Below are positions 59,901 through 62,007 of a DNA stretch of 64,000 nt, piece by piece. The stretch covers positions 62,001 to 126,000 of the forward strand of contig NC_014532.2 of the NCBI RefSeq assembly GCF_000196875.2, given 5' to 3'. The position numbers were made by a program, and so were the translations under genes. Below the pieces are notes generated by a model. The model was given only the letters and a program-made list of their open reading frames with translations, was not told where the DNA came from and did not search any database. Source of the DNA: Halomonas elongata DSM 2581 (lineage in GTDB: Bacteria > Pseudomonadota > Gammaproteobacteria > Pseudomonadales > Halomonadaceae). The first letter of the stretch is position 1; each line of letters opens with the position of its first letter.

Positions 59901-60238
59901 TTCGCCAACCAACCCAGACCGATGTGGCGCTCGCGTTATTACCTGACGAGGGTGGTGGAACCTGGACGCTGCATCGCGTGGAAGACGGGGCCAAGCGTGG
60001 TGAAACGCTTTACGTGGCAGTCGAAGAGAGTCTGATGGCGCGGATAGACCTGGAGCATGAACAGGGCGAGCGCATTCAGCCCTGGGGCGCCGATGACTAC
60101 CTGACCGCGCTTGCCGACCTCGCCGAGGACCTAGACATCCCGCTCGACAAAGCCGCACGCACCTTCGGCATCGTCAGTGCACCCGAAAGCACGCATGGGT
60201 GGCGCTATCACCCCGTGCTGGGATTTGTGAAGAAGTGA
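56897..60238 (+). CDS. cas3: Cas2/3 fusion (Cas3f helicase-nuclease)
   Basis: 1113 residues. The first 95 or so residues are the Cas2-like domain (MNVLLVSQCNKNALKETRRILDQFAERRGERTW). The HD nuclease follows with LLHDLGKASAAFQQRL (His123-Asp124) and SHHRLPLK. The helicase has Walker A STGCGKTLANGRIMY at about 432, LVLDEIDDFD at about 587, LSSATLPPAL and the C-terminal IQLAGRVWRHRD. It degrades DNA marked by the Csy complex and joins Cas1 for spacer uptake. It has the typical I-F length (P. aeruginosa about 1076). A hairpin at 60239-60258 directly follows the stop. Confidence 0.96.
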   Translation: MNVLLVSQCNKNALKETRRILDQFAERRGERTWQTPITLEGLDTLRKLLRKTARKNTAVACHWIRGHDHSELVWIVGDAKRFNPQGAVPTNTTSRDILRREDENDWHSGEDILLLASMSALLHDLGKASAAFQQRLQGKLEGRNLYRHEWVSLRLFQAFVGDDDDATWLARLAEGRYQEADWLENMERDGLDAEPAAIFRRLPPLAAALGWLIVSHHRLPLKPPDDLSNPATRWGSQNVTLQMEQLGDVLSLIDAQWNEISTTQDPQRITPYWTFHHGLPLSTWRWRERAAKQAKRLLARLSDDTNWLDSPYVMHLSRLCLMLADHHYSSLEDPARRVQGEPGYPLVANTVRKTGQPNQLLDEHILGVEKHASTIARALPTVESHLSRLARHKGFRKRSEHPRFRWQDQAFDLAQSLRERSQCQGFFGINMASTGCGKTLANGRIMYALADPEQGARFSIALGLRTLTLQTGQALRERLHLGEDELAVRVGGSANKALFEHYEKDAEASGSASTQGLIDEDAHVVFEGHIDTHPVLRRLGDEPGTRSLIAAPILVCTVDHLVPATESTRGGRQIAPMLRLMSSDLVLDEIDDFDINDLPALTRLVHWAGLLGSRVLLSSATLPPALVHGLYEAYRSGREAYQHHRGEPGQPVNICCAWFDENDRQHQDCADGDAFSAAHAAFATRRLKRLAENPVRRRGELLSLPALGKRPEEIRPGLAELLRTQAAQLHERHHSRDPVTGKRVSFGLIRMANIDPLVDVARSLFQQGACSGQRIHLCVYHSRHPLVMRSEIERRLDRTLQRAEPERVFEQADIRRLLDGSDEADHLFIVLGSPVTEVGRDHDYDWAIVEPSSMRSIIQLAGRVWRHRDKPCDTPNIQLLDTNLKHLEDPGRLAFQRPGFETDEAWRLNHHSLNALLVPDEYQIIDARPRVLARETLFPRDSLVDLEHQRLVTQMLEPPTQPLTKKERRLGMEPSPPPLGAYSWYAVPRMHLTGVLSQRQRFRQPTQTDVALALLPDEGGGTWTLHRVEDGAKRGETLYVAVEESLMARIDLEHEQGERIQPWGADDYLTALADLAEDLDIPLDKAARTFGIVSAPESTHGWRYHPVLGFVKK

Positions 60239-60330
60239 GGGCTGGTTGCGACCAGCCCGAGCTGCCTTTGCGGCAGCTGAGCATTCATAGCGTGAGGTGA
60301 TATTTCTGAGCTGCTTTTCGGCAGCGATGG
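60239..60330 (-). ncRNA. CreA-like crRNA-resembling RNA between cas3 and csy1
   Basis: Read on the minus strand from about 60330, the segment contains pseudo-repeat 1 (60333-60303, ending with the exact I-F handle CTCAGAAA), a 21-base pseudo-spacer (60302-60282, beginning TATCACCTCACGCT), and pseudo-repeat 2 (60281-60254, with an intact Csy4-type hairpin CTGCC-GCAAA-GGCAG). The RNA could end at the GGGCTGGT/ACCAGCCC hairpin at 60258-60239. A promoter sits exactly upstream. A normal I-F spacer is about 32 bases, so this one is short, as in CreA and other regulatory crRNA-like guides that bind Cascade without calling Cas3. The family assignment is inference. Confidence 0.75.
60254..60281 (-). 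repeat. Pseudo-repeat 2 (degenerate type I-F CRISPR repeat)
   Basis: Minus strand CTCAG-CTGCC-GCAAA-GGCAG-CTCGG. The canonical I-F repeat has the stem CTGCC/GGCAG with a five-base loop, which is preserved; only the flanks and handle (CTCGG instead of CTAAG or CTCAG) differ. Csy4 should still be able to recognise the stem. Confidence 0.7.
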
Positions 60331-60333
60331 AAC
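60303..60333 (-). repeat. Pseudo-repeat 1 (degenerate type I-F CRISPR repeat)
   Basis: Minus strand GTTC-CAT-CGCTGCCGAAAAGCAG-CTCAGAAA. The 5' GTTC and the 3' handle CTCAGAAA are canonical, and the stem region has lost one G and gained a few bases, leaving GCTGC/GCAGC with a six-base loop. The two ends match type I-F repeats much better than chance, and repeat identity drops between. Confidence 0.72.
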
Positions 60334-60336
60334 TAT

Positions 60337-60365
60337 AGCATAGGGTTACAGAGGAAAGGTGTCAG
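60337..60365 (-). promoter_or_regulatory. Sigma-70 promoter for the crRNA-like RNA
   Basis: On the minus strand: -35 CTGACA (60365-60360), 17-base spacer, -10 TATGCT (60342-60337). The start would be near 60330, at the 5' edge of pseudo-repeat 1, the position expected for a guide RNA that begins with a repeat. Confidence 0.62.
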
Positions 60366-60368
60366 ATT

Positions 60369-60391
60369 CAATCAAAGTGTGAGTTGATAGG
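60369..60391 (-). promoter_or_regulatory. Cascade target site (protospacer with CC PAM) matching the pseudo-spacer
   Basis: The minus strand reads CC (60391-60390) followed by TATCAACTCACACT and seven further bases to 60369. Compared with the pseudo-spacer, 17 of 21 positions agree. The mismatches are at 6, 12, 15 and 19. Positions 6 and 12 are the flipped bases that a type I Cascade does not use. The CC is the type I-F PAM. The seed (1-6) overlies TTGATA on the plus strand, a good -35 for rightward transcription. The site also lies just upstream of the guide RNA's own -35. Confidence 0.75.
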
Positions 60392-60504
60392 ATTGATTGT
60401 TTGTGGAAAGGCTACTAACCTCTAAAGGACTGGACGGTGGCGGCCGTCCAGTGATGAGACAACATAACCTGATAACTGTGTTGCAGCAGTAAGGAGGTGA
60501 GAGG

Positions 60505-60537
60505 GTGATTGGCTATTGCTCCGTTAGGAGGGTATAG
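60505..60537 (+). CDS. 10-codon mini-ORF with tandem AGG-AGG codons
   Basis: GTG ATT GGC TAT TGC TCC GTT AGG AGG GTA TAG. The GTG lies seven bases after the GGAGG of an 11-base anti-16S match, one of the strongest ribosome sites possible. Codons 8 and 9 are AGG, rare in this GC-rich genome, which uses CGC/CGT. The peptide would be MIGYCSVRRV. It is far shorter than any usual protein, so the point is more likely ribosome or tRNA engagement than a functional product. Confidence 0.5.
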   Translation: MIGYCSVRRV

Positions 60538-60551
60538 ATTTCTACCCAAAC

Positions 60552-60577
60552 AGCTCCGAGGTTCTTGCCTCGGGGCT
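60552..60577 (+). terminator. Hairpin downstream of the mini-ORF
   Basis: AGCTCCGAGG pairs with CCTCGGGGCT (ten pairs, one G-T) around TTCTTG, 14 bases after the mini-ORF stop, followed by CATTGTCTCATT and, 18 bases on, TTTTT. It may end the toxin-like RNA before csy1 or act as an attenuator. Confidence 0.5.
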
Positions 60578-60630
60578 CATTGTCTCATTAGCGCTTGTTT
60601 TTACCAAGCCCCATCTCGTAAGGACATGTT

Positions 60631-62007
60631 ATGCCCACTATGTCTGGTGGCTGGCAGGAACTCCGTGAGTTAATTGAGGCGTTCTTGAAAGACCGCTTCG
60701 ATACCAAAGCGGAAAAGCTGGCTACCGATGATCCCAAGTACCAAGCGCTGGTTGAACAGTTTCAGCGTGACAGCTGGCTCCAAGACGCCGCGCGGCGTGT
60801 CAGCCAATTGCAAGTCGTAACCCACTCTCTCAAGCCTATTCATCCAGATGCAAAGGGCTCGAATCTCTATACGCCCCCAGAGTTTCTGTCTAAGCATCAA
60901 GGGGTGGGAAGCCATTTGTTACCGGCAGATTTCGATGGCGATGTTGTAGGTAATGCTGCTGCACTCGATGTCTATAAATTCCTGAAGATTGAGTACGATG
61001 GGAAGTCATTGCTGGAGCGTGTGCTCGAGGGAGACACCGAACTGGCGCGTGCCTTGAGCGATAATTCAGAGCAGTCACAAGCTTGGATGAAGGCCTTTGC
61101 TGGCATTACCGAGCCTCGCGGTGAACATGCTTCTCATACTCGTGCCAAGCAGGTGTACTGGTTAACAGGGGACGATGCCGTGGATGATGGAGATTTTCAT
61201 CTATTGGCACCACTCTATGCGACCTCGCTGGCACATCAAGTCTTTCAGACGATCAATCGTGATCGGTTCAGCGACGAGGCCAAGGAGGCCCGCAAGGCCA
61301 AACGTGAAGGGAAATTGGGCGAACAAGAAGTTCATGACTATCCCAATATAGCTTCACAAAAAATGGGTGGCACAAAGCCGCAGAATATTTCGCAACTGAA
61401 TAGCGAACGAGGTGGTAACAACTATTTATTGGCGTCGTTGCCGCCTGCCTGGAGCTCTCGTGATATCCGCCCACCATTAAAGGCGGACTCCGTTCTGTCT
61501 CGCGGCGGAATGTTTGGTCGACGCAAGGAAGTACGGGCATTGGTCGGTGATCTGAAGCGATTTCTGGAGACCAATCCCAACATAGATATGCATACACGTG
61601 ATCTACGTGATGACTACACCGCGATGATCATGGATGAACTAGTACTGTTCACGATGCAGATGCATAGCCTCGAGCCAGGATGGAGTGCCGATGAAAACTG
61701 CCGTCTAGCCGAAGAAGAGGTTTTCTGGCTTGATCCGGGCCGTGCCCAAGAGGATGCCGAGTTCCGTAAAGCGCGCCATGCAGCAGACTGGCCTGACGAG
61801 ATTCGTCAGCGTTTCGCCAATTGGCTTAACGAGGCGCTTGGTGGCAAGTTACCGCTAGGGGATGTCGAGTTTCGTCACTGGAAGAAAGAGCTCGGTCAAG
61901 ATGCTTCCCATCAACGACTGCTAGATAAAGACCGTCGCTGGATGGCTGCCCTGGTGGAAGAACTCGATGAGTTGGAAGAGCTAAAGGGAAGGGAAGACGA
62001 TGAGTGA
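60631..62007 (+). CDS. csy1: Csy1 (Cas8f), large subunit of the type I-F Cascade
   Basis: 458 residues. Recognisable Csy1 features are HPDAKGSNLYTPPEF, DVYKFLKIEYDGKSLLERVLEGD, KQVYWLTGDD and HDYPNIASQKMGGTKPQNISQLNSERGGNNYLLASLPPAW, a highly conserved central motif. It binds the 5' handle with Csy2 and reads the CC PAM. TAAGGA lies six bases before the ATG. The 392-base gap before it is the CreTA-like region. It overlaps csy2 by eight bases. Confidence 0.95.
   Translation: MPTMSGGWQELRELIEAFLKDRFDTKAEKLATDDPKYQALVEQFQRDSWLQDAARRVSQLQVVTHSLKPIHPDAKGSNLYTPPEFLSKHQGVGSHLLPADFDGDVVGNAAALDVYKFLKIEYDGKSLLERVLEGDTELARALSDNSEQSQAWMKAFAGITEPRGEHASHTRAKQVYWLTGDDAVDDGDFHLLAPLYATSLAHQVFQTINRDRFSDEAKEARKAKREGKLGEQEVHDYPNIASQKMGGTKPQNISQLNSERGGNNYLLASLPPAWSSRDIRPPLKADSVLSRGGMFGRRKEVRALVGDLKRFLETNPNIDMHTRDLRDDYTAMIMDELVLFTMQMHSLEPGWSADENCRLAEEEVFWLDPGRAQEDAEFRKARHAADWPDEIRQRFANWLNEALGGKLPLGDVEFRHWKKELGQDASHQRLLDKDRRWMAALVEELDELEELKGREDDE

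Follow-up and report, generated by a model that had tools for sequence, protein, structure and literature searches.

A putative type I-F CreTA-like module with a tandem rare-codon pair between cas3f and csy1 of Halomonas elongata

Type I-F CreTA modules have been published for the Acinetobacter strains WCHA45, LoGeW2-3 and ANC3789 (Wang et al. 2023, PMC10097628), and that of LoGeW2-3 is one of the two Acinetobacter modules found to be toxic (PMC10097628). In haloarchaea, the CreT RNAs act through tandem codons, AGA AGA in H. hispanica and AUA AUA in H. hubeiense, and have a downstream stem-loop (PMC8501985). Two further arrangements have been reviewed: CreR, a guide directed to repress the cas operon of its own system, and CrePA, in which a protein toxin repressed by CreA lies beside CRISPR-Cas (review PMC12737573).

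The window analysed here, a stretch of 64,000 nucleotides from Halomonas elongata DSM 2581 (genome size 4.06 Mb), ends in a type I-F operon in which Cas1f, Cas3f, Csy1, Csy2 and Csy3 were identified. The intergenic region (IGR) between cas3f and csy1 resembles the Acinetobacter modules in its length (about 400 bp) and in having a pair of degenerate repeats that flank a guide of about 20 nt with a partial match next to a CC PAM. It further shares with them a toxin or toxin-like RNA that is divergent from the guide, lies downstream of the target and presents a Shine-Dalgarno (SD) sequence and a 33-bp ORF, whose start codon is part of a stem with 4-12 as closing pair and a 7-nt loop. The ORF of the LoGeW2-3 plasmid copy (ATG TTT AGC ACA CAT TTA GTT AGA AGG GTC TAG) is equally 33 bp long, presents the hairpin found here and likewise has uncommon codons, AGA AGG, at positions 8 and 9. 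In contrast with Acinetobacter, the window presents an SD match longer than that of LoGeW2-3, a GTG start codon and a stem richer in G-U pairs, and its creT promoter is predicted downstream of the target, whereas the start measured in Acinetobacter lies upstream of it (PMC10097628). Furthermore, the rare-codon pair is here held in position across lineages, a feature of which the available text of PMC10097628 makes no mention for Acinetobacter.

A preliminary description of this locus had likened it to the archaeal CreTA system. The likeness holds for the tandem minor codons, but the closest known system is the Acinetobacter one. With haloarchaeal CreT the locus has in common strong signals for the start of translation, a pair of adjacent minor codons and a downstream stem-loop, and the haloarchaeal pairs AGA-AGA and ATA-ATA are the two commonest among the mini-ORFs collected here; guide repression, which operates via type I Cascade in haloarchaea, would have its predicted counterpart in Csy. 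The locus differs from haloarchaeal CreT in its bacterial I-F setting, its ten-codon ORF, the location of the pair at codons 8-9 and its start-codon hairpin. Like CreR, it encompasses a crRNA-like guide directed to a site ahead of the cas effector operon, but CreR comes without a toxin, whereas a conserved toxin-like RNA lies here between the target and csy1. It also resembles CrePA in that a guide-controlled toxin, here a candidate, adjoins CRISPR-Cas; the candidate in the window is an RNA, and in some relatives this IGR harbours protein toxin-antitoxin genes instead. The module appears to be an I-F CreTA variant combining the Acinetobacter hairpin with the archaeal tandem-rare-codon design, which would unite in one RNA the tRNA sequestration of archaea and the ribosome-binding hairpin of Acinetobacter, two CreT mechanisms described as distinct in the literature. 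Among the open-licence matches listed, taken by title and start of abstract, there was no earlier report of tandem rare codons in an I-F CreT and none of a Halomonas CreT; one of them, PMC12654330, mentions both Halomonas and CreT.

Guide, target and predicted promoters

The cas3f-csy1 IGR comprises 392 bp (60239-60630), from the cas3 stop at 60238 to the csy1 start at 60631. It contains, in this order, a minus-strand mini-CRISPR of two repeats, the target and a plus-strand RNA with an SD and a 33-bp ORF (Table 1), and on this evidence it appears to hold a complete type I-F CreTA-like module. We consider it about 75% probable that the region is such a module, with a guide through which Csy would shut off the promoter of a small and likely toxic RNA.

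Table 1. Features of the cas3f-csy1 intergenic region and of csy1, in window coordinates.
Feature	Position	Strand	Remark
PsiR2, degenerate second repeat of creA-like mini-CRISPR	60254-60281	-	would form 3' handle stem
PsiS, 21-nt guide (spacer) of creA-like RNA	60282-60302	-	guide/target co-variation, 39 loci
PsiR1, degenerate first repeat	60303-60333	-	stem GCTGC..GCAGC in predicted fold
Predicted creA promoter (-35 CTGACA, 17 nt, -10 TATGCT)	60337-60365	-	9/12
creA target and CC PAM	target 60370-60389, PAM 60390-60391 (GG on + strand)	-	16/20 match
Predicted creT promoter, -35 TTGATT abutting PAM, -10 weak	60393-60421	+	7/12
5' hairpin of creT-like RNA, 10 bp	60429-60452	+	same place in most of 45 loci
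11-nt Shine-Dalgarno TAAGGAGGTGA	60490-60500	+	complement of 16S 3' end
Start-codon hairpin	60503-60521	+	nt -2 to 4 with nt 12 to 17 of ORF; 7-nt loop TTGGCTA
33-bp mini-ORF GTG...TAG	60505-60537	+	GTG ATT GGC TAT TGC TCC GTT AGG AGG GTA TAG
Tandem AGG AGG, codons 8-9	60526-60531	+	rare-codon conservation in 31 distinct ORFs
3' hairpin AGCTCCGAGGT(tctt)GCCTCGGGGCT	60552-60577	+	conserved helix
csy1	60631-62007	+	effector operon's first gene; TIGR02564

The CRISPR array that lies 3' of the window has the repeat GTTCGCTGCCGCCCAGGCAGCTCAGAAA and spacers of 32 nt. The hairpin of PsiR2 (CTGCC..GGCAG) is that of the array repeat, its stem also appearing in the predicted fold, and the 5' handle of PsiR1, CTCAGAAA, is the same as the 5' handle of the array repeat. 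The joint occurrence of guide, PAM-flanked target and toxin-like RNA proposed in the preliminary description was confirmed, with the whole module lying in one IGR and PsiS matching the target at 16 of 20 positions (mismatches at 6, 12, 15 and 19), the best match next to a CC PAM in the IGR. A target at the SD itself was rejected, the best CC-PAM match there being 8/20.

Guide and target were compared across IGRs from those family genomes that have a csy1 (75 of 275), in 72 of which both flanks were resolved. The comparison covered the 39 loci with a recognisable mini-CRISPR, scored on the 17 non-flipped positions; IGRs below 120 bp and loci L049, L055-L059, L061-L063, L065 and L097, which have no recognisable mini-CRISPR, were set aside, and for L083, with three repeats, the guide nearer the RNA was used. 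Guides matched their own IGR at a mean of 14.7 of 17 positions (range 10-17), against a mean of 8.4 (maximum 16) for the IGRs of other loci and of 8.3 (maximum 13 in 7800) for shuffled guides. The maximum of 16 among mixed pairs presumably stems from guides common to related loci, and the poorest fits were those of L066 (10/17) and L052 (12/17). Matches were most frequent at positions 1-5 (38-39 of the 39 loci), followed by positions 7-11 (32-38) and 13-17 (26-36), with positions 6, 12 and 18 matching in merely 7, 11 and 14 loci; this per-position count used a forced minus-strand site for L068, whose best target lies on the other strand (14/17). Positions 6, 12 and 18 are those that type I-F guides leave unpaired. 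The guide and its target are almost certainly real.

A -35-like TTG was present 0-3 nt from the PAM in 28 of 34 loci, compared with 12% in shuffles, and a creT promoter match of at least 9/12 was found in 14 of the 34 loci, compared with 1.3% in shuffles, the window's own match being 7/12. Given the match of guides to their own targets over 39 loci and the presence of a promoter beside the PAM, the guide very probably acts as a repressor of that promoter. The scan for the creA promoter returned one site, with 0.5 expected in shuffles. The predicted creA -35 lies a few bases from the target (window 60360-60370), and Csy bound at the target might also dampen transcription of the guide itself.

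Conserved elements of the creT-like RNA

The preliminary description had reported a full-length complement of the 16S rRNA 3' end, followed after seven bases by a GTG and a ten-codon ORF with AGG AGG at codons 8-9, and all of this was borne out. The 11-nt TAAGGAGGTGA occurs once in the whole window (0.01 expected), and the matching 16S 3' end, GGATCACCTCCTTA, is present in four rRNA loci of the genome, so the 11-nt complementarity is real. Seven nucleotides separate its AGGAGG core (60492-60497) from the GTG at 60505.

The region folds better than shuffled sequences (z -4.5). The 5' hairpin recurs, with other stem sequences, in most of the 45 loci with a mini-ORF, and is weak in L185, L009, L011 and L089. 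The inverse repeats that the preliminary description had suggested might shape the RNA, ATGAGACAA (60454-60462) and TTGTCTCAT (60580-60588), are exact, but the stem they would close is not conserved: its score of 21.5 is unusual in the window itself, 20 being reached by 1.5% of mixed-locus pairs, but it falls to 14.0 in the nearest relative, L045, and over the 45 loci own pairs average 13.6 against 13.3 for mixed ones. It was accordingly rejected as a conserved RNA frame, and the conserved elements are the 5', start-codon and 3' hairpins.

A structure alignment was built from 30 of the 31 distinct RNAs, L190 (TCA AGA) being left out, and the start-codon helix emerged from it unsought, with 91% of cells paired. 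The covariation score of the two conserved helices together was 0.516, against 0.297 in shuffles and reached by none of 500, and helices slid along the alignment scored below 0.2; related sequences in the set inflate these scores and the pairing counts that follow. Seven pairs showed double changes, a number that 47 of the 500 shuffles reached. At least four of five pairs could form in 29 of 31 ORFs paired with themselves, compared with 65% of cross-locus pairs, and after sliding the 3' partner by -3 at least four pairs still formed in 18 of 31. The start codon also varies together with nt 15: RNAs that start with ATG have U15 and those that start with GTG have C15, except for a single GTG-U case. 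Half of the hairpin's six pairs are G-U in the window, and the global fold of the region did not choose it. Mutation has established that a start-codon hairpin with the same numbering is needed for the toxicity of Acinetobacter CreT (PMC10097628), and the covarying hairpin links the creT-like RNA to this characterised I-F system.

Rare codons at positions 8 and 9

Mini-ORFs were searched in IGRs of at least 300 bp as GGAGG followed after 5-11 nt by ATG or GTG, codon identity being no criterion. The sample comprised 89 of 180 resolved loci, or 69 after deduplication; same-species pairs remain among these, and counts are hence given by distinct ORF. Frames shorter than 9 codons were discarded; L013 (with its copy L164) and L068 each had two frames of at least 9 codons, of which the frame containing the rare pair was counted. 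A mini-ORF was found at 45 of the 69 loci, giving 31 distinct sequences. Of these, 30 had one of the rare codons AGG, AGA, ATA or TTA at position 8, and all 31 had one at position 9. The pairs were AGA-AGA in 14 ORFs, ATA-ATA in 10 and TTA-TTA in 2, with AGG-AGG, AGG-AGA, AGA-TTA, AGA-ATA and TCA-AGA found once each. Codons for Arg, Ile and Leu were rare in 61 cases and common in none at positions 8-9, against 3 rare and 36 common elsewhere in the same ORFs (Fisher 5e-24). The expectation that SD and tandem rare codons should persist in relatives while other codons vary was thus confirmed, codons 2-5 being partly held by the hairpin, but the pair is not tied to AGG.

Among family loci with an IGR of 390-460 bp the pair lay at codons 8-9 in all 23, and a tandem pair was present in 26 of the 72 resolved family loci, counting L083 and two loci with the pair at codons 6-7. 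These two, L099 and L102, carry AGA AGA behind another SD and belong to the 24 of 69 loci without a GGAGG mini-ORF, some of which have protein-coding cargo; L187, also among the 24, has AGG AGA at codons 8-9 with an SD spacing of 4. In Vitreoscilla (L236), AGA AGA stands at codons 9-10 of a frame that was read by eye, outside the ORF test. The class of the pair (Arg, Ile or Leu) changed at least 10 times on a Csy1 tree, a rough count given that 12 of its 45 rows have fewer than 90 residues and near-duplicates are included. Guides differ between AGA-type (L051, L060) and ATA-type modules (L047, L050, L054) of one genus, which points to exchange of modules and suggests that tRNA switching may have proceeded through whole-module exchange.

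Codon usage, computed without annotation on sampled ORFs, the longest that do not overlap, amounted per 1000 codons to 3.7-4.2 for AGG, 1.4-2.1 for AGA, 4.5-4.6 for ATA and 1.3-1.4 for TTA. AGG makes up about 5% of Arg codons, and the rarity ascribed to it needs qualifying: the codon is uncommon, but as the sixth or seventh rarest in the genome it is not among the very rarest. Tandems of rare codons were found in 10 of 45371 codon pairs in the stricter sample of genes and in 19 of 72078 in the wider one. The single tRNA-Arg(CCU) gene that the preliminary description called for was found, as one of 66 tRNA genes called at 67 tRNA-family matches, which would fit a scarce cognate tRNA, and tRNA-Arg(UCU) and tRNA-Leu(UAA) are also encoded by one gene each.

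Proposed mechanism and alternative readings

In the proposed mechanism, a crRNA-like guide would direct the Csy complex to silence the creT promoter. When the RNA is made, its SD and start-codon hairpin would capture initiating ribosomes, and each of them would stall after seven codons, at a pair whose tRNAs are scarce or encoded by single genes, so that ribosome and tRNA alike would be held. Loss or blockage of Csy would end guide repression, the RNA would accumulate and growth would stop. The creT-like RNA is probably toxic, and it is reasonably likely that its rare codons contribute to the toxicity; the toxin reading stands up in silico, and the interpretation given in the preliminary description is partly supported.

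Between the creT-like RNA and csy1, simple scans returned neither an intrinsic terminator nor a sigma-70 match on the plus strand, and the RNA may therefore serve at the same time as 5' leader of the csy mRNA. We regard the chances that the two share a transcript as even. With a shared leader, a partial loss of Csy would first raise csy expression, and only a lasting loss would be punished. More tentatively, and at slightly less than even odds, the I-F CreTs, including those of Acinetobacter, could form one family of two-stage ribosome traps that double as csy leaders. The SD and hairpin would load the ribosome, and the rare pair at codons 8-9 would jam it and hold the tRNA, with the trap re-aimed repeatedly in evolution at the tRNAs for AGA/AGG (Arg), ATA (Ile) or TTA (Leu). 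A single guide-controlled promoter would then set both CRISPR dosage and the penalty for CRISPR loss.

The RNA might also be toxic without sequestering tRNA, its SD and start-codon hairpin seizing ribosomes while codons 8-9 would be retained for some other purpose, for instance the spacing of ribosomes or the RNA sequence. Such a mechanism has been proposed for Acinetobacter CreT from mutational data (PMC10097628), and the same hairpin is found here. In that CreT, toxicity is reported to be lost when codon 2, 3 or 5 is changed synonymously, with no such effect given for other codons in the available text of PMC10097628, so that toxicity there does not depend on any one rare codon; this implies that single changes at codon 8 or 9 left toxicity intact, and the codon 2, 3 and 5 data are, on that text, the main published evidence against a mechanism based on tRNA alone. 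However, positions 8-9 are rare by codon and not by sequence, common Arg, Ile or Leu codons never occurring there (61 to 0), and an archaeal CreT extended with AGA, AGG or CTA tandems kills E. coli (PMC12362730). We view toxicity without sequestration as unlikely, at roughly one chance in four.

Less probable again is autorepression of the kind known from CreR (PMC12737573), in which the guide would repress the csy operon, the 5' region would be a mere leader and any effect of the mini-ORF would be incidental. The target does lie upstream of csy1, the simple scans revealed no terminator or second promoter in between, and seven family loci (L005, L007, L008, L070, L098, L104 and L106, IGRs of 172-286 bp) have a guide and target before csy1 without a mini-ORF, making them candidate plain CreR autorepressors. 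Yet autorepression needs neither a strong SD, nor a covarying start-codon hairpin, nor rare codons kept at positions 8-9 in 31 distinct ORFs. Autorepression and the toxin reading are compatible.

A leader-peptide attenuator or translational sensor, raised as an alternative in the preliminary description, in which stalling at the rare pair would alter the leader fold and set csy1 expression by tRNA or ribosome status, would suit a short ORF with tandem codons, flanking hairpins and csy1 directly downstream, but it is very improbable: the simple scan gave no intrinsic terminator before csy1, the sole pairing examined, between the region after the 5' hairpin and that before csy1, was not conserved (13.6 against 13.3 for mixed pairs), and the amino acid of the pair alternates among Arg, Ile and Leu, with at least 10 class changes on the Csy1 tree, so that no single amino acid would be sensed.

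If the toxin reading is true, cells would be punished for losing CRISPR immunity, and the reasons for which CRISPR-Cas is kept in spite of its costs become directly testable in halophiles, with natural variants that differ in the tRNA predicted to be hit. Halophiles of this kind are easy to grow. The combination of an SD, a start-codon hairpin and rare codons at positions 8-9 beside csy1 also provides a search signature, which helps to find RNA toxins too small for gene callers.

Distribution and other cargo of the intergenic region

A covariance model of the RNA matched 25 of the 275 family genomes at E 0.01, 24 with strong matches near csy1 and one with a weak match elsewhere in a csy1-positive genome; the genome-wide search applied stricter filters, with the loss of weak matches. 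The 200 genomes in which no csy1 was matched gave no hit, and this absence is the informative part, as the model was partly built from the same loci. The range of the design extends beyond the Halomonadaceae to Zoogloea, Tahibacter and Luteimonas (TCA AGA), and to metagenome-assembled genomes assigned to Saccharospirillum, Hydrogenophaga and Burkholderiales.

Several relatives carry other genes between cas3 and csy1. In L074, Pfam identified ParD and ParE (L074:466-1079), and the part of the RNA from SD and ORF to 3' hairpin is missing, with a 5' hairpin like that of relatives kept, which suggests that the toxin RNA may have been replaced by another addiction module, ParDE. L080 resembles L074 by length and guide. 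The IGR of L048 contains a HicB-family antitoxin (Pfam) and an ORF that is HicA-like by eye, with no Pfam hit; L052 looks alike by eye, and L064 and L066 share sequence pieces with them. These four loci have IGRs of about 840-950 bp with a degenerate mini-CRISPR left, and no GGAGG mini-ORF was found in them. Ten loci (L049, L055-L059, L061-L063 and L065) have one IGR length, about 237 bp, and the two inspected, L049 and L057, seemingly retain a HicB-like remnant alone, without a mini-CRISPR.

In Carnimonas nigrificans (L083, L168), one IGR of about 1.2 kb presents three degenerate repeats and two guides, and other small ORFs were seen in the cas3-csy1 IGR of L224, L226 and L230. The Vitreoscilla plasmid pVF1 has an annotated VapC-family toxin in this position (L236:492-1526). 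The cas3-csy1 IGR is perhaps a hotspot for guide-linked cargo. On a plasmid of Acinetobacter sp. ANC 7970, the mini-ORF looks decayed (L235:1818-1870), while repeat-like sequences of the guide region persist.
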